Virus record (IMG/VR): IMGVR_UViG_3300021474_000030
Coordinates: 1-24,511 of that record
From: a virus
Length of the DNA: 24,511 nt
Strand: one strand, 5' to 3'
In this document: positions 18,692 through 24,444 of the stretch, one piece after another
How positions within the stretch are numbered: the first letter of the stretch is position 1
Layout: each line of letters opens with the position of its first letter
Notes under the pieces: model-generated
Seen by the model: the letters and a program-made list of their open reading frames with translations, nothing else
Told to the model about the DNA's origin: nothing
Databases searched by the model: none
Made by a program: the position numbers and the translations under genes

Positions 18692-18735
18692 AAAAAAAAA
18701 CCGACTGCTTAGTTACCTACGACTAAACAATCGGT
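18692..18735 (-). terminator. Rho-independent terminator after the tRNA cluster
   Basis: ACCGA(CTG)/(CAA)TCGGT and an inner TTAGT/ACTAA arm pair to a stem of about 13 bp with small mismatches (18700-18735). On the minus strand nine T follow directly. It lies between the last tRNA and terminase and would end the right-hand transcript. Confidence 0.82.
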
Positions 18736-18764
18736 CACCTCAAAGAGGATTATTATGCAAGAGA

Positions 18765-18835
18765 TGCTCTTTGAAGGAATCGAACCCCCACACTCTGAGT
18801 ACAAAACAGAAGGTCTACCATTAACCTAAAAGAGC
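18765..18835 (-). tRNA. tRNA-Thr (UGU)
   Basis: A full cloverleaf of 71 bases. The acceptor arms GCTCTTT/AAAGAGC pair completely. D-arm GGTT..AATGGTAG..ACC. Anticodon stem TCTG/CAGA with a tolerated T-T pair at 31-39, loop TTTGTAC with T33, anticodon TGT and A37. T-arm GGGGG TTCGATT CCTTC. Discriminator A73; G1-C72 and C2-G71 agree with Thr identity. CCA is not encoded. Confidence 0.88.
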
Positions 18836-18838
18836 ATT

Positions 18839-18909
18839 TGGAGACGGCAGGAATCGAACCTACACTTCAGCCTTGCAAAGACCACTAGCTACCATTACAA
18901 CACATCCCC
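18839..18909 (-). tRNA. tRNA-Ala (UGC)
   Basis: A cloverleaf of 71 bases. Acceptor GGGGATG/CGTCTCC includes G3-U70, the key alanine identity pair, and the discriminator is A73. Anticodon loop TTTGCAA gives TGC; the alternative reading GCA (Cys) breaks the anticodon stem and lacks the U73 expected for Cys. The anticodon stem has several G-U pairs and the D-stem one mismatch. T-arm GTAGG TTCGATT CCTGC. Three bases separate it from the Thr tRNA. Confidence 0.85.
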
Positions 18910-18913
18910 ATAA

Positions 18914-19018
18914 TGAAGAAGGAGGGACTTGAACCCCCGACACCGCATGAAAACACTACCAGGCCCCGGAAACCAGAACCAGTGCTCATCGCCCCTCTAC
19001 CAACTGAGTTACTTCTTC
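18914..19018 (-). tRNA. 105-base tRNA-like gene with hairpin in place of a normal anticodon arm
   Basis: Perfect acceptor arms (GAAGAAG/CTTCTTC), position 8-9 TA, a standard D-arm (CTC AGTTGGTA GAG) and a standard T-arm (GGGGG TTCAAGT CCCTC) with A73. Between D- and T-arms are about 59 bases instead of the usual 27. They contain an 8-bp hairpin GGTTCTGG-TTT-CCGGGGCC with only a three-base loop, extended by CACT/AGTG and ATGA/TCAT. I found no 5-bp stem with a seven-base T33 loop, so no anticodon can be assigned. Removing the 31-base CACT...AGTG element leaves 74 bases, a normal tRNA length, but still no canonical anticodon arm. It may be an interrupted tRNA, a decayed tRNA or a tRNA mimic. Confidence 0.6.
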
Positions 19019-19066: not shown

Positions 19067-19120
19067 GGACTTACCTTGGATTCCATCTATGGCTAGACAG
19101 ACCAATTCTTGTGCCAAAAG

Positions 19121-19194
19121 GGCCGGATGCAGGAATCGAACCTACGCATAGCTCCCGGGTGAGGGGTGCTGCTTTCCCACTTAGCTAATCCAGC
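19121..19194 (-). tRNA. tRNA-Val (CAC)-like, atypical
   Basis: A cloverleaf of 74 bases. Acceptor GCTGGAT/ATCCGGC (one T-G pair), D-arm GCT..GTGGGA..AGC and T-arm GTAGG TTCGATT CCTGC are normal. The anticodon arm AGCACCC / GGGAGCT has an A-A mismatch around loop CTCACCC, giving T33 and anticodon CAC. Position 37 is C instead of a purine and the discriminator is C73, rare outside tRNA-His, so isotype and function are doubtful. Its 5' acceptor bases also encode the last codons and stop of the secreted protein gene upstream. Confidence 0.6.
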
Positions 19195-19696: not shown

Positions 19697-19882
19697 CTAT
19701 TTTTTCATACCTTTTAATGTTTCAGCCAAACGCGCTCTCTGGCCTTCTTTCCCCGGTTTATGTGCCGCAGCTTCTAACTTCTTCTCAGGGATCTTCTTCC
19801 CCTCCGGCACGCCAAGCTCCTTATGCAATGCCCCCGGCTTCTTAATCGCCCCTTGAATCCACTTTTTCTTCTCTTTTGACAT
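19697..19882 (-). CDS. Conserved small phage-type protein
   Basis: A 61-residue basic protein. WIQGAIKKPGALHKELGVP at the N-terminus and EGQRARLAETLKGMKK at the C-terminus match a type of small phage protein I know from many tailed phages, in which a 'W-I-Q-x-A-I-K-x-P-G-A-L' start is conserved. No function is established as far as I know. The start lies 40 bases inside the phosphoesterase gene, with GAGGA upstream. Confidence 0.72.
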   Translation of the reverse strand: MSKEKKKWIQGAIKKPGALHKELGVPEGKKIPEKKLEAAAHKPGKEGQRARLAETLKGMKK

Positions 19883-20534
19883 ACTTATCCTCTATTTCTA
19901 TGTTTAGTATCCTGTTTACTGGTCTGTAACTTCGATCCATTCTTGCCACGTTATAGGTCTTCAAGCCACCTTCCTCATGCTCCCCATAAGCCTCGTGTAT
20001 GTGCCCATGGAAATGATACTTTAGTTTGTTGCCGCGGAGATAGTCTACCTGCCGTCTAAGCGCCTCACAGCCAGCGTAATCCCCATATATTGTTCTATCT
20101 AACCGCATATAACATGGCCCATGGCTTATCAATATGTCTGTGTTATATGGAATTTTCTCGAACTTATCTACCAAATCAAACTCACTTCGAAGCATAAAAG
20201 CTGTGCAATCCGGATTTACACCATGAAACCACCGCGTCCAAGGCGACCCCCATATCTTATAGCCTTCGTATTCAGTTCCAGAATCACACAGATAATCAAT
20301 GCCCAGTTTTTCTATATACTTAAAAAATGAAGATGCCGCAGTCTGAAATAAGTTATCATGATTCCCCGCTATCATTACCTTTTTTTTGTAATCTTGCTTT
20401 TCCATCCATAACAAGAAATCATCATACTGCGAAGGTTTATCCCTTGATGTCATGTCGCCGGCAAAAATGAGCAGATCGCCACCCTTTAACTTCGGCCTAT
20501 CGCCATGCACGTCACTAATCGCTGTTACCCTCAT
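19842..20534 (-). CDS. Calcineurin-like metallophosphoesterase
   Basis: A 230-residue enzyme with the whole two-metal site: D8-x-H10 (SDVHGD), GD 26-27 (FAGDMTS), GNHD 57-60, His138 in ISHGP and HGHIH 176-180. Substrates in this superfamily include phosphoproteins, nucleotides, cyclic nucleotides and nucleic-acid ends, so the substrate cannot be read from the sequence. Length is normal. GAGGAG lies before the ATG, which overlaps the previous stop (ATGA). It lies in the same gene run as two RNA ligases. A role in trimming RNA ends is therefore possible, as in clostridial Pnkp, where the phosphatase domain is of this fold. Confidence 0.87.
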   Translation of the reverse strand: MRVTAISDVHGDRPKLKGGDLLIFAGDMTSRDKPSQYDDFLLWMEKQDYKKKVMIAGNHDNLFQTAASSFFKYIEKLGIDYLCDSGTEYEGYKIWGSPWTRWFHGVNPDCTAFMLRSEFDLVDKFEKIPYNTDILISHGPCYMRLDRTIYGDYAGCEALRRQVDYLRGNKLKYHFHGHIHEAYGEHEEGGLKTYNVARMDRSYRPVNRILNIEIEDKYVKREEKVDSRGD

Positions 20535-20734
20535 TTTCTCCTCAACTTCGGCACATCCCAGTACCCACCCTTGTGTTCCATCGGTGAGGTCCAGACTTCA
20601 TTTTGCTTCTTAAAGTGATTACCATCCACCAATTCCATCTCTTTATCTCGTCTTATTCGCCTGTTTGCTTCCTTCTTCCATTTCTTAGCCCCATCTGCAT
20701 TTCCATAGTAAGGCTCTCTGTATGACTTGCTCAT
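20531..20734 (-). CDS. Small basic hypothetical protein
   Basis: A 67-residue protein, rich in Lys, Arg, Tyr and Trp. The N-terminal half is a helix (NADGAKKWKKEANRRIRRDK), followed by an aromatic tail (WTSPMEHKGGYWDVPKLRRK). This type of short protein is found in phage accessory regions, but I cannot name a family. The ATG is at a TAATG junction with the FmdB-type gene; AAAGGGA lies just upstream. The stop overlaps the phosphoesterase start. Confidence 0.65.
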   Translation of the reverse strand: MSKSYREPYYGNADGAKKWKKEANRRIRRDKEMELVDGNHFKKQNEVWTSPMEHKGGYWDVPKLRRK

Positions 20735-20931
20735 TACTTCCCTTTATAATCAGTTTCATAGAAGCCAGTCCCGCTAAAATGCACTGCCGGCTTCGATAGT
20801 TGCTTGACCATCATTGCGTTCTTGCCATCCATCATACACTCGCCGCAAATCCTTACAAACTTTTCCTTCGCCTTGTGCATCAATTCCACTACCACGCCGC
20901 AGTTAGGGCACTTGTAATCATATATCGGCAC
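20734..20931 (-). CDS. FmdB-type zinc-ribbon protein
   Basis: A 65-residue protein. PIYDYKCPNCG at the N-terminus and a second Cys pair (Cys29, Cys32) make a CxxC..CxxC ribbon with Cys8 and Cys11. Together with the closing VHFSGTGFYETDYKGK this is the FmdB/putative regulatory protein pattern. The family is widespread; its role is poorly defined, with suggestions of regulatory or nucleic-acid binding functions. The start is GTG, sharing its G with the TAG of the co-chaperonin gene (TAGTG), so translation probably depends on coupling. Confidence 0.85.
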   Translation of the reverse strand: MPIYDYKCPNCGVVVELMHKAKEKFVRICGECMMDGKNAMMVKQLSKPAVHFSGTGFYETDYKGK

Positions 20932-21197
20932 TAATCATCTCTCAATATGCCAAGGATCTCTTTCTCTGCCACAAGAAAATAAGGCTCCTCGTCACTGCCG
21001 CCTTTTATCTTGCACCCTGCATACGACGCCAGCAACACAAAGTCACCCACCTTGATCGGCGCCTCTACCTTCTCCCCCACTCCCTTGACCTGCGCTCTCA
21101 TCGGCTCGTCGTCCATCCGCGGCAGCAAGAGCATTCCTTTTCTCTCTGGCGGCTTGATTTGCACCACCAAACCTCGACCAATAGGCTGCATCCCCAT
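20931..21197 (-). CDS. GroES-like co-chaperonin
   Basis: An 88-residue protein from ATG, with AAGGGG seven bases upstream; a TTG at 21203 is the longer alternative. The pattern is that of the 10-kDa chaperonin fold: QPIGRGLVVQIKPPERKGML opens the barrel with its mobile-loop region. MRAQVKGVGEKVEAPIKVGD and FVLLASYAGCKIKGGSDE form the core, and YFLVAEKEILGIL the last strand. T4 gp31 is a phage protein that replaces GroES during capsid folding. This protein may lid the host GroEL for the phage's own capsid protein. No GroEL-type gene is in the window. Confidence 0.85.
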   Translation of the reverse strand: MGMQPIGRGLVVQIKPPERKGMLLLPRMDDEPMRAQVKGVGEKVEAPIKVGDFVLLASYAGCKIKGGSDEEPYFLVAEKEILGILRDD

Positions 21198-21369
21198 ATT
21201 CAAACCCCTTCATCACTTGTGAATGTTTTGTCCAATTAATTTCCTCACCGTCCTTGGCCCTCCAAACACGGTATTTCAGTATCGGCTTAAAGATCTTGTG
21301 ATCCGGCAGCCGCTCCCACTCATCGTCCAGAAAAATATAATTAGGCATGTACTTACTTTTCCAAATCAT
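21043..21369 (-). CDS. Hypothetical protein with long same-strand overlap into the co-chaperonin
   Basis: A 108-residue ORF. The first about 57 residues (YIFLDDEWERLPDHKIFKP; YRVWRAKDGEEINWTKH) look like a normal small protein. The rest lies in another frame of the co-chaperonin gene for 155 bases and reads Gly/Ala/Arg-rich, as a shadow would. The ATG overlaps the RNA ligase stop (ATGA), which supports real translation from here. Either the C-terminal tail is genuine overlap coding or the original stop was lost. Family not recognised. Confidence 0.5.
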   Translation of the reverse strand: MIWKSKYMPNYIFLDDEWERLPDHKIFKPILKYRVWRAKDGEEINWTKHSQVMKGFEYGDAAYWSRFGGANQAAREKRNALAAADGRRADESAGQGSGGEGRGADQGG

Positions 21370-22340
21370 CGCTCATACCCTAAATTTATCACCTTGAAAC
21401 TTATAGGCTTATTTCCAAAGTTTTCCTGCGAACGAACCACTACACCTTCTCTTTCCTTTCCATTAACATATTTTCCTTCACCTAGCAATTCAATTCCTTC
21501 TCTGCTAAATGATCTTCCAATCTTAAAGACTCTGCATACAGGTATCTCCAAATCGATGCATAGACCAACAAATTCCATCATCGTTAAATATCTTTGTTCA
21601 ACAATATTATATGCACTAAATGCCAAACCATCGATATCCTTGAAACCCATCGGATTGCCTTGTATCTTAGGTCCACATGTCTCCCATTGCAGAGCGATAC
21701 CTTCCGGAAGCTTCTCCTCTAATCCGTATTTTATCGCCACCTTCCAGTATCCATTCTTTTCATTCTTTTCAATTTCATAATTCCTGCTGCAAACTCCGAA
21801 TATGCCTTTATACCTGTATGCGGTTGAACTTGACCCATCGGCTTTCTCAGTAATATAGTACGGATTTCCTACCAACTGATCTACCAATTCGGGATATTTT
21901 TGATAATTCAACTCATCTGTCTTCGGGATAAAACTAGGAAAATCGCCCTTTGCCACACCCAAAAGATTGATAGGTATAGGTTTATGATACTTTGTTACGA
22001 ACCTTTCACCAGTAAGATCATAGCCAATAGGGTAGTTATTATATTTCCAGAGAATGGGCATAATAACCACTTCACTAGGCGCACCACGGAACCTACGCAT
22101 CTTAACACGCCAGCCGCTCGCCTTCATGAATCCCATGCGTACGTCATCCTCCGGCACCAATGCATCAGGCAAAAAAACCTCACACAAATCACCCAAAGAA
22201 TATTCTGACTTACGAACTATACCTCGCCATTTACCCCCCTGGCCGCAGACCACCGTAGCACTGACAATCTGGTCTGCCTCCGGTATTTGATCTAAAGAAA
22301 TAATCTTGCCTACATATACTAAACCATTGCTCTTTTCCAT
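21366..22340 (-). CDS. RNA ligase, DRB0094/Rnl5 type
   Basis: A 324-residue ATP-dependent ligase that seals 3'-OH to 5'-phosphate RNA ends. The nucleotidyl-transferase motifs are present: motif I K166-A-D-G (TEKADGSSS), motif Ia SRNYE at 185-189, Glu220 with GPKIQGNPMG (motif III-IIIa), REGVVVRS near 298 (motif IV) and SFKVINLGY with Lys316 (motif V). The N-terminal 120 residues form a separate beta-rich domain, as in the Deinococcus DraRnl group (Rnl5), where an OB-fold precedes the catalytic part. The gene is joined to the 28-residue ORF by TAATG. It is a different mechanism from the RtcB ligase next to it, and the two together suggest an RNA-repair block. Confidence 0.9.
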   Translation of the reverse strand: MEKSNGLVYVGKIISLDQIPEADQIVSATVVCGQGGKWRGIVRKSEYSLGDLCEVFLPDALVPEDDVRMGFMKASGWRVKMRRFRGAPSEVVIMPILWKYNNYPIGYDLTGERFVTKYHKPIPINLLGVAKGDFPSFIPKTDELNYQKYPELVDQLVGNPYYITEKADGSSSTAYRYKGIFGVCSRNYEIEKNEKNGYWKVAIKYGLEEKLPEGIALQWETCGPKIQGNPMGFKDIDGLAFSAYNIVEQRYLTMMEFVGLCIDLEIPVCRVFKIGRSFSREGIELLGEGKYVNGKEREGVVVRSQENFGNKPISFKVINLGYER

Positions 22341-22426
22341 TAGTCTCCCTCTAATACTCTGAGGATCTCTTCTAATAAACTCTTAATGTCTCTCAGCAAC
22401 TCTCTATCGTATTCACACATTGACAT
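22340..22426 (-). CDS. 28-residue ORF between the two RNA ligases
   Basis: A short ORF with a perfect AGGAGG Shine-Dalgarno sequence four bases before ATG. Its TAA shares a base with the start of the downstream ligase (TAATG), which itself lacks a good separate ribosome site. The peptide (MSMCEYDRELLRDI, then LLEEILRVLEGD) is an acidic amphipathic helix with a leucine pattern that could pair. It may act as a coupling leader for ligase translation or as a small partner protein. Confidence 0.6.
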   Translation of the reverse strand: MSMCEYDRELLRDIKSLLEEILRVLEGD

Positions 22427-22434
22427 AGTACCTC

Positions 22435-23598
22435 CTAATCTTTATATGGATCAAATTCTCTTCCGTCTGCCATGCAAACCCCTATAGGCCGCAATGTATG
22501 TAATATCTTTATTGTATCTTTATGGTATTCCAGTATTTTTTCAATGCGCTTATAGGCCAGAGGTGATTCGTCGAGATCGCCCCCACGCACTTCGACTCCC
22601 ATCTTTTTAATGTATTCCTCGTGTGCATCCTGTAAGACCAATCCCTCTCGTATGACATTCCCCCGACGATCTCTTTTGCCTTTCGCTTGCATTCTTCCCA
22701 TCGCACGGCCTGCTCCATGTACTGTAGAGTATAGCAATTTTTGTGATTGGGCGGATTCGACGCCTTCCAAGATAACTGAAATATCTCCCATAGAGCCTCC
22801 GACAAATCCTTTCTGACCTGGGAAAGCTGGTGTAGCTCCTTTTCTGACAACCCATAAGTCTCGATCAAAATGCCGCTCTTTCCAGGCAAAATTATGGTGG
22901 TTATGTACTTCTTCGACGACATTTCCACGTAATATCTTTGCAACCCTCGAACAAACCCAGTCTCTTCCCGCATAAGCATATCTACCAGCGAGTTCCATGC
23001 ACTTAAGATATTGCTGTCCAAGGTCGCTAGCCTCATCAAAAATAACCGGCGCCGCGTGCACTCCATCCTTCCCCCCACCCTTCTCTATAAAATATTTGCA
23101 AATACTATGGCCAAAACCCCTGCTCCCAAAATGAACCCCAACCCAAACGCGATTAAGCTCGTCCAGAAAAATATCCACATAATGGTTTCCACTTCCAACC
23201 GTACCAAGCTGATCCATAGCTTTCTGTTTGAGTCCTCCAAGGAGTGGTATATCGCCAAATAATGGGTCAGCAAATACATCTGAATCCACCTTTTCATCGT
23301 TCTTTCTCCCCACTCCGAAGCTTATATGTTTCCTTACTTCGTTCATTGTTCGGTATATGCCTTTCTTGACTTCCTCGGCATCACAGTCCAGTCGCACTGC
23401 CTTGTTTCCGCATGCAATATCAAACCCCACACCATTGACACAAATGCCCCCATCAAAGGCTACCACACCCCCAACAGGGACACTATAACCCAGATGATGG
23501 TCTGCCATTAATGCGCAGTGCACCGGGCCATACTTCGCTATTTCTTCCATCTGCTTCACTGCGTCCTCTTCCGGCTCGCCCATCACGTGAATTTGCAT
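22435..23598 (-). CDS. rtcB: RtcB-type RNA ligase
   Basis: A 387-residue GTP- and manganese-dependent ligase that joins 2',3'-cyclic or 3'-phosphate ends to 5'-OH ends, as made by tRNA-cutting nucleases. The family motifs are all present: MADHHLGYSVPVG, then GFDIACG with Asp60 and Cys63 as metal ligands, GSGNH with Asn138 and His139, HFGSRGFG with His156, VHNHHNFAW around 231, VVRKGATPAFPGQ at 250, and STVHGAGRAMGR with His294, the residue guanylated in the family. Length is close to E. coli RtcB (408). AGGA lies nine bases before the ATG. Archease, which helps some RtcB enzymes, was not seen. Confidence 0.95.
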   Translation of the reverse strand: MQIHVMGEPEEDAVKQMEEIAKYGPVHCALMADHHLGYSVPVGGVVAFDGGICVNGVGFDIACGNKAVRLDCDAEEVKKGIYRTMNEVRKHISFGVGRKNDEKVDSDVFADPLFGDIPLLGGLKQKAMDQLGTVGSGNHYVDIFLDELNRVWVGVHFGSRGFGHSICKYFIEKGGGKDGVHAAPVIFDEASDLGQQYLKCMELAGRYAYAGRDWVCSRVAKILRGNVVEEVHNHHNFAWKERHFDRDLWVVRKGATPAFPGQKGFVGGSMGDISVILEGVESAQSQKLLYSTVHGAGRAMGRMQAKGKRDRRGNVIREGLVLQDAHEEYIKKMGVEVRGGDLDESPLAYKRIEKILEYHKDTIKILHTLRPIGVCMADGREFDPYKD

Positions 23599-23609
23599 AA
23601 TATTTAATC

Positions 23610-23921
23610 CTATTTATTTGTAATGCTTTTTATAAAATTCATGTCATTAACAATATCTCTATACTGTTGATCCAAGTCCCGCCAAGCTACAACCACTCCC
23701 GAATTTGGCATTTTCCAGCCTACATGCGGATTAAACTGTGCAAAACAAAGTTTCATCCCAGTATCTTCGTAATCCCTAGGGGCAAAGACTATAACCTGAA
23801 CCTTTCTATCACTGCTCGGCAGGCCATCTTCACACTTGGTCCACTTCTCTGCCGTGCCTTCCTCGACTATTTCATTGCCTTCTCTGATCTCTCTTATCCA
23901 TTTCTGTACAAACTTTATCAT
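23610..23921 (-). CDS. DUF551-like small protein
   Basis: A 103-residue protein. KWTKCEDGLPSSDRKVQVIV, then FAQFNPHVGWKMPNSGVV and AWRDL follow the DUF551 pattern (W-x-x-V-x-x-x-L-P ... V-L-V ... W-x-x-x-G-x-V-x-x-W). That domain is common in phage accessory regions without an agreed function. The C-terminal 20 residues are extra. The ATG overlaps the previous stop (ATGA) and has AGGAG upstream. Confidence 0.66.
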   Translation of the reverse strand: MIKFVQKWIREIREGNEIVEEGTAEKWTKCEDGLPSSDRKVQVIVFAPRDYEDTGMKLCFAQFNPHVGWKMPNSGVVVAWRDLDQQYRDIVNDMNFIKSITNK

Positions 23922-24253
23922 ATATTTCTCCTGTTTAAATTAGGCACCATGTTTAAGTCCAAAACCTTCTTTTCATAAGCTTTTATTGGATTATTTTCAT
24001 TCCATTTGTTAAACAATTCATCAACTTTTTCCAAAAACCTGTCCAAAATACACTTACTGGTGTTCCTAATAGAAACTTTTGCCTCCGATTCAACCCTACA
24101 AGCACACCTTATCTTCCAAATCCATGTCTTATCTTCCCCGGCACCAACTTGATCTAGCGGCATAGACAAATCAGGCGTTTTTCGGCACCAAGGACACGGA
24201 CTCAATGCCGCCTCAACAAAATTTCTTGTGATTTTTATCTGCTTGTATGTCAT
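23918..24253 (-). CDS. Lar-like zinc-ribbon protein
   Basis: A 111-residue protein. LSPCPWCRKTPDLS with Cys20 and Cys23, a second Cys pair (Cys50, Cys52, in KIRCACRV) and a C-terminal helix containing FNKWNE follow the restriction-alleviation (Lar) layout 'L-x-P-C-P-x-C-G ... C-x-x-C ... W-N-x-R'. Rac-prophage Lar relieves type I restriction. The match is partial: the second pair is CxC, not CxxC. TAATG joins it to the membrane protein gene. Function in anti-restriction is inferred. Confidence 0.62.
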   Translation of the reverse strand: MTYKQIKITRNFVEAALSPCPWCRKTPDLSMPLDQVGAGEDKTWIWKIRCACRVESEAKVSIRNTSKCILDRFLEKVDELFNKWNENNPIKAYEKKVLDLNMVPNLNRRNI

Positions 24254-24444
24254 TAGCTCTTATACTCCTTAATACAACCGAAAATTACCATAGTAATAAA
24301 AATAATAGTAATTAATATCCAAAAAAATGCTGTAATTAATAAAGGCAAAAAAACTACAAACCAACTAATAGCCGCCAGACCACACAATTTAAGCACCAAT
24401 AACACCAAAAATACGATACTCATTAATCCAATCCTCATTCCCAT
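24253..24444 (-). CDS. Small membrane protein, 'transmembrane Fragile-X-F'-like
   Basis: A 63-residue protein with two hydrophobic helices (about residues 7-30 and 33-57) and a short KEYKS tail. GLMSIVFLVLLVLKLCGL followed by SWFVVFLPLLI matches a short phage and bacterial family labelled 'transmembrane Fragile-X-F protein', with no known role in phages. GAGGGG lies four bases before the ATG; a second ATG at 24438 would make an ATGA overlap with the gene before. Confidence 0.7.
   Translation of the reverse strand: MGMRIGLMSIVFLVLLVLKLCGLAAISWFVVFLPLLITAFFWILITIIFITMVIFGCIKEYKS

Follow-up and report, generated by a model that had tools for sequence, protein, structure and literature searches.

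RNA ligase and phosphoesterase genes in one run

We analysed a 24.5-kb stretch of DNA from an uncultured virus of bacteria (IMG/VR record IMGVR_UViG_3300021474_000030, positions 1 to 24,511; below, the window), in which genes for an RtcB-type RNA ligase, an ATP-dependent RNA ligase (Rnl) and a metallophosphoesterase lie upstream of tRNA genes. The window also encodes a P22-like portal protein and a terminase large subunit, as recognised with Pfam and PHROG. From position 24444 down to 19560, the main genes are all on the minus strand, and most of them either overlap slightly or stand no more than about 11 bases apart. The run begins with two small genes and a 103-amino-acid (aa) open reading frame (ORF), followed by RtcB, a 28-aa ORF, the ATP-dependent ligase, a 108-aa ORF, a GroES-like gene, a zinc-ribbon gene, a 67-aa ORF, the metallophosphoesterase and small ORFs. 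It ends with tRNA-Val, a tRNA-like gene, tRNA-Ala, tRNA-Thr and a terminator-like hairpin. Coordinates, strands and closeness of RtcB, the 28-codon ORF, the ligase and the phosphoesterase were given correctly in a preliminary description of this DNA. The same arrangement is present in a near-identical contig (L002, 98-100%) from another sample, and thus it is no assembly accident. Inside the run no strong promoter or terminator is apparent, promoter matches being no better than those in shuffled sequence; we infer that co-transcription of the run is likely.

The RtcB-type ligase (22435..23598, minus strand, 387 aa) matches PF01139 at 2e-67 and PHROG 1075 at 1e-74. The domain spans the full length of the protein, which can be aligned with the RtcB proteins of Pyrococcus and human. 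The metal-binding and guanylylation residues D60, C63, N138, H139, H156, H234/H235 and H294 align to Pyrococcus RtcB; D60, C63, N138, H139, H156, H235 and H294 are invariant across 21 homologues, and the H232 region is nearly so. Assignment to the PrfH-linked RtcB2 type (release_rtcB) was rejected, as the scores are under the cut-offs (92.6 against 271.8 bits for TIGR03073, 122.6 against 407 bits for PRK09588). RtcB enzymes join 2',3'-cyclic phosphate or 3'-phosphate ends to 5'-OH ends and do not need a kinase. The window protein is predicted to seal the same ends, with GTP and Mn.

The second ligase (21366..22340, minus strand, 324 aa) is of the Rnl5/DRB0094/Naegleria type. It consists of an N-terminal OB domain (PF21189, 8.5e-9) and a nucleotidyltransferase domain (PF09414, 2.5e-20), and matches the PHROG 'RNA ligase' at 1e-39. 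The closest PDB sequence is that of Naegleria gruberi NgrRnl (E 3.5e-30, about 28% identity). The same protein (6vtf) is the top Foldseek match of an AF2 model (pLDDT 86), with E 5.8e-26 over the full length and a TM-score of 0.57, the domain orientation being uncertain. Residues K166, D168, E220, E298 and K316, representing the KxDG nucleophile and motifs IIIa, IV and V, are invariant across 12 homologues. The NCBI DRB0094 equivalog TIGR02306 scores 79.2 bits against a cut-off of 151.15 bits, about half, and thus the protein is Rnl5-like and not a DRB0094 equivalog. Domain architecture, motif residues and fold are shared with Deinococcus DraRnl (DRB0094) and NgrRnl; unlike these, the window ligase is linked to RtcB and a phosphoesterase. 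ATP-grasp RNA ligases join 3'-OH to 5'-phosphate ends, and the characterised Rnl5-type ligases are sealers of duplex nicks. By membership in this group, the window Rnl is predicted to seal 3'-OH/5'-phosphate nicks. So the two ligase families, the intact key residues and the complementary end chemistry stand as the preliminary description had them, the chemistry in agreement with established knowledge.

The phosphoesterase (19842..20534, minus strand, 230 aa; PF00149, 1e-13) is MPPED-like. Its nearest PDB sequence is MPPED2 (E 3.7e-24, about 30% identity), and the AF2 model (pLDDT 87.5) has 3rl4, of the MPPED2 fold, as its top Foldseek match (E 1.9e-16, TM 0.79 of the query). The metal ligands D8, H10, D27, N58, H59, H138, H178 and H180 are invariant across 13 homologues. 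SbcD and PdeM gave weak scores compared with the clear MPPED2 match and were rejected. Fold and metal ligands are those of MPPED1/MPPED2 and the Rv0805 class III phosphodiesterases; in contrast to them, this is a phage gene adjoining RNA ligases. MPPED enzymes are phosphodiesterases that favour 2',3'-cAMP and have undetectable monoesterase activity (PMC10547211), a preference known in eukaryotic relatives only. This suggests action on RNA 2',3'-cyclic ends: the phage enzyme is likely a 2',3'-cyclic phosphodiesterase and a putative trimmer of broken RNA ends.

Linkage of the genes in other phages

A search of viral contigs yielded 80 RtcB loci, and an alignment-based search yielded 78 Rnl loci (single-sequence patterns for Rnl had recovered only the twin contig). 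After removal of near copies, 72 distinct phage RtcB groups remained. An Rnl of the window's family was found in 15 of them, on the same strand as RtcB in all 15 and within 2.5 kb in 14. Where the record is 20 kb or longer, the spacing is far below that of random placement (Fisher-combined p 2.5e-7, 8 lineages), and with two far-apart pairs of distant RtcB and Rnl homologues added p is 2e-6; the uniform-placement null is generous, since auxiliary genes cluster. The carriers are diverse: terminase identity to that of the window is 83-92% in L003, L004, L006 and L016, and 34-48% in L012, L036, L052 and L070. In L165-L167 a pair of divergent RtcB and Rnl enzymes has the reversed order. The position of Rnl relative to RtcB varies as well, upstream, downstream or 3.8 kb off, and on the RtcB tree Rnl presence switches state 8 times. 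The pair is best seen as a frequent but optional module, repeatedly assembled and lost. No adjacent pair was found in a cultured phage: the RtcB relatives in Tunturi_5, AP-16-3 and Mwe-JY26 are without an adjacent Rnl, and in phage pf16 the two genes are far apart.

The phosphoesterase goes with Rnl, not with RtcB. It lies at most 4 kb from RtcB in 12 of the 15 groups with Rnl as against 6 of the 57 without (Fisher p 4e-7), and touches or overlaps the Rnl gene in L135, L146 and L158.

Other genes of RNA repair occur nearby. Ro60-like genes (TROVE and vWA domains) stand directly beside RtcB in three records (L069:6439-7923, L077:6541-7962, L079:9588-11096), and in a phage with both RtcB and Rnl another one is 5.4 kb from RtcB (L036:1254-2573); Ro60 was not seen among the scanned window genes. 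A second RNA ligase (PF09414) was found near the Rnl5-type ligase or RtcB (L059/L142:8570-9295, L125:6816-7553, L138:6928-7674, L026:6934-7620), so that L059 has RtcB, the phosphoesterase and two ATP-dependent RNA ligases inside about 5.5 kb. PNKP-type HAD phosphatases occupy neighbouring slots in L146/L139, L128, L008 and L039. The P-loop polynucleotide kinase (PF13671) was above the cut-off in none of 17 related records, the window record itself being incomplete.

A candidate RNA-repair cassette

Taken together, RtcB, the Rnl5-type ligase and the MPPED-like phosphoesterase may constitute a phage RNA-repair cassette that covers both break chemistries without end-healing by Pnkp; we give this reading a probability of about 0.62. 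RtcB would reseal cuts of metal-independent RNases, joining 2',3'-cyclic phosphate or 3'-phosphate to 5'-OH. The Rnl5-type ligase would reseal the 3'-OH/5'-phosphate breaks that metal-dependent nucleases leave, most likely those held as a nick by base pairing. The phosphoesterase could open 2',3'-cyclic phosphates so that the RNA end becomes usable or, alternatively, could prevent the build-up of cyclic-phosphate RNA or nucleotides as a signal. These genes are probably transcribed along with the phage tRNAs, and the benefit would be that translation continues under attack on tRNA or rRNA by host defence RNases. Since relatives often keep the genes together, a kit against RNA cuts by host defences is probable. 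The enzyme families, their intact active sites, the gene run and its conserved linkage are observed; which substrates are used, when the genes act and that defence is what selects for them is what we infer here.

The idea has precedents. For jumbo phages, Iyer et al. (2021, PMC7824862) have put forward that RtcB, Rnl1 and Rnl2 are combined and take specialised roles against different RNases, so the cassette is a variant of a published idea. As in those phages, where non-redundant repair was proposed and some genomes contain Ro/TROVE, RtcB and an ATP-grasp RNA ligase are present in one phage. Unlike them, the genomes related to the window are about 40 kb, the genes are side by side, no kinase was found, the ATP-dependent ligase is Rnl5/Naegleria-like and its partner is an MPPED-like phosphoesterase; Rnl5, DRB0094 and MPPED are unmentioned in the text of the jumbo-phage paper (PMC7824862). 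Within the literature searched, the new elements are the recurrent adjacency, the Rnl5-like type of ligase and the MPPED-like partner; the comparative survey of RNA-repair systems by Burroughs and Aravind (2016) may already cover some of this. In T4, Pnkp and Rnl1 repair tRNA-Lys cut by PrrC, and there too the phage encodes RNA resealing as well as tRNAs of its own. The preliminary description suggested a parallel toolkit with other enzymes here. On this point it has to be revised: a Pnkp-type kinase was not found in the relatives, the window ligase is not Rnl1-like and RtcB requires no kinase. In bacteria, the rsr-yrlBA-rtcBA operon of Salmonella, tied to cleaved tRNAs, likewise combines RtcB with a tRNA-like RNA (PMC7790460), and the Ro60 genes beside RtcB in L069, L077 and L079 add to the likeness; on the other hand, neither RtcA nor RtcR was recognised among the scanned window genes.

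Several observations weigh against such a cassette. The preliminary description had proposed a check for conserved co-occurrence in phages: the pair does recur in diverse phages, which speaks against genes carried independently and far apart. However, it is optional, as 57 of the 72 RtcB groups lack Rnl and most Rnl records lack RtcB; each ligase often occurs without the other, and so neither needs the other. G052 and G087 hold just distant homologues of both, far apart. Four Rnl records (G067, G057, G054, G055) contain RtcB fragments with stops or truncations, two of them weak matches, which suggests repeated loss of RtcB. The association of the phosphoesterase with Rnl shows the same trend but is not significant on independent tree contrasts (sign test, median p 0.25), and close kin are over-represented among the phages counted. 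Related Rnl5 ligases are nick sealers and not anticodon-loop ligases, so the substrate of Rnl may be something other than a cut anticodon loop. The phosphoesterase may act on cyclic nucleotides instead of RNA ends. Finally, the enzyme roles are predicted from sequence, and the involvement of host RNases is presumed.

One alternative concerns the phosphoesterase gene only, and the remainder of the cassette explanation could stand beside it. The enzyme might be a signal-degrading counter-defence protein, loosely tied to RNA repair, with cyclic nucleotides of CBASS, Pycsar or type III CRISPR systems, or 2',3'-cyclic nucleotide monophosphates, as substrates. Indeed, MPPED-like enzymes hydrolyse cyclic nucleotides (PMC10547211) and such a role has already been proposed for calcineurin-like phage enzymes (PMC7824862). 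On the other hand, the gene tracks Rnl and sometimes overlaps it, and we regard this role as possible but unlikely.

Another possibility is that independent auxiliary genes were collected in a shared gene-gain hot spot and are close without joint function. Each gene is often alone, Rnl shifts its position, and RtcB remnants near Rnl in four records are what would be expected of optional genes. Strong adjacency with the same-strand bias, partners that are specifically of RNA repair (Ro60, the second ligase, the PNKP-type phosphatase) and the reversed-order pair in an unrelated phage all speak against chance collection, making it rather improbable.

If the cassette reading holds, compact RNA-repair modules may exist in small phages of about 40 kb, beyond jumbo or T4-like ones. 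Recurrence of the specific triad of RtcB, Rnl5-type ligase and MPPED-like phosphoesterase leads to a testable prediction of the RNA ends left by host defences, and an MPPED-like phosphoesterase can be named as a likely end-processing partner of Rnl5-type ligases.

tRNAs, a tRNA-like RNA and the remaining genes

Four tRNA or tRNA-like genes had been reported downstream of the phosphoesterase. They comprise three good tRNAs predicted by ARAGORN, all on the minus strand, tRNA-Val(CAC) (19120..19194, Rfam 41 bits), tRNA-Ala(UGC) (18838..18910, 48 bits) and tRNA-Thr(UGU) (18763..18836, 60 bits), and one tRNA-like gene of 105 nt (18914..19018, minus strand), which ARAGORN missed and which scores 39.6 bits with the Rfam tRNA model under relaxed filters. 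The acceptor, D and T arms of the latter are normal. A long bulged hairpin replaces the anticodon arm, with 55 nt between the D and T arms as against about 23 in tRNA; thus it lacks the canonical 17-nt anticodon arm. Between the gene run and the terminase gene stands a strong intrinsic terminator-like hairpin (18699..18736, minus strand), a 15-pair stem followed by a T run, with which the gene run ends. Another hairpin with a T run, at about 19066-19029 just upstream of the tRNA-like gene, could stop some transcripts early.

Further members of the tRNA-like RNA were found in L003:12432-12535, L004:12298-12404, L006:12818-12921, L053:2908-3014(-), L088:4570-4687(-), L091:1498-1605, L141:4724-4812, L158:7577-7676 and L133:9922-10030. 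The nine members (ten with L133) have at least six different acceptor stems with pairing intact. Among nine members, 23 of 23 pairs are kept at 100% and 25 cells are double-changed, a result equalled in none of 500 shuffles; covariation is strong in the acceptor and T stems. On either side of the variable hairpin, whose bulges are on one strand, all nine have the same flanking sequences, GGCGATGAGC and GTTTTCATGC. A pattern scan reported the RNA in 12 viral contigs, of which L191 is a chance match; with L088, detected by the first pattern, 12 contigs carry it, and eight of these have RtcB or Rnl of the window's family. L088 and L091 carry neither ligase, and thus the RNA is not strictly tied to them; L085 and L086 are fragments. 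A strict tie to RtcB was rejected in its own right, RtcB being absent from five of six records tested. In bacterial genomes, the pattern scan found nothing beyond chance matches; a bacterial origin was rejected, as the three genome matches lack the T arm. To judge from these scans, this is a conserved, virus-only RNA family, hitherto undescribed. It has zero matches to Y-RNA families in Rfam, another difference from the Salmonella operon. For YrlA, the tRNA-like RNA of that operon, competitive inhibition of an anticodon nuclease was proposed, not shown (PMC7790460), and by analogy the same could be conceived for the phage RNA.

An intron in the tRNA-like gene was considered and rejected: the intron modes of ARAGORN made no call, excision at the conserved borders leaves no standard anticodon arm, and the bulge order is wrong for the archaeal bulge-helix-bulge. 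Other over-long tRNA-like genes (L003:12092-12214, L019:5180-5284, L057:6412-6516) may be tRNA-Tyr genes whose anticodon loop and variable arm carry insertions.

These data bear on the suggestion that the phage uses the enzymes in the metabolism of its own RNA, either tRNA maturation and repair or transcript circularisation and turnover, instead of counter-defence. In archaea and animals tRNA splicing relies on RtcB as the ligase, and the gene run ends in tRNA genes and a tRNA-like gene whose anticodon arm is enlarged, both of which would fit it; yet it appears unlikely, as none of the window proteins scanned with Pfam was recognised as being of the splicing-endonuclease type, the hairpin cut at its conserved borders leaves no canonical anticodon arm, many ligase-bearing relatives have no tRNA genes nearby, and L088 and L091 hold the RNA without either ligase.

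The 28-codon ORF between the ligases (22340..22426, minus strand), whose stop overlaps the ligase start, has counterparts in the same slot in relatives. In L003, L004, L005 and L006 this slot holds an ORF of 32-68 aa with an identical start, e.g. MSMCEYDRNLLKEV. By this comparison, the window ORF is a real but short gene, a shortened form of that of the relatives.

The 108-aa ORF (21043..21369, minus strand) has no assigned function. Its 3' half overlaps the GroES/Cpn10-like gene (20931..21203, minus strand; PF00166, 5e-9) by 161 nt in a different frame. Only its N-terminal part of about 54 aa is conserved in L003/L006/L016; since relatives match just the first half, the window ORF may have lost its stop. 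Further downstream are an FmdB-type zinc-ribbon protein (20734..20931, minus strand; TIGR02605, 1.8e-10, over the cut-off) and a conserved 67-aa protein of unassigned function (20531..20734, minus strand; 64-81% identity in L004, L005, L016). Upstream of RtcB, positions 23918-24253 encode a cysteine-containing 111-aa protein weakly similar to Lar-like proteins of restriction alleviation (PHROG 599, E 0.0013), which is kept at this place in relatives.

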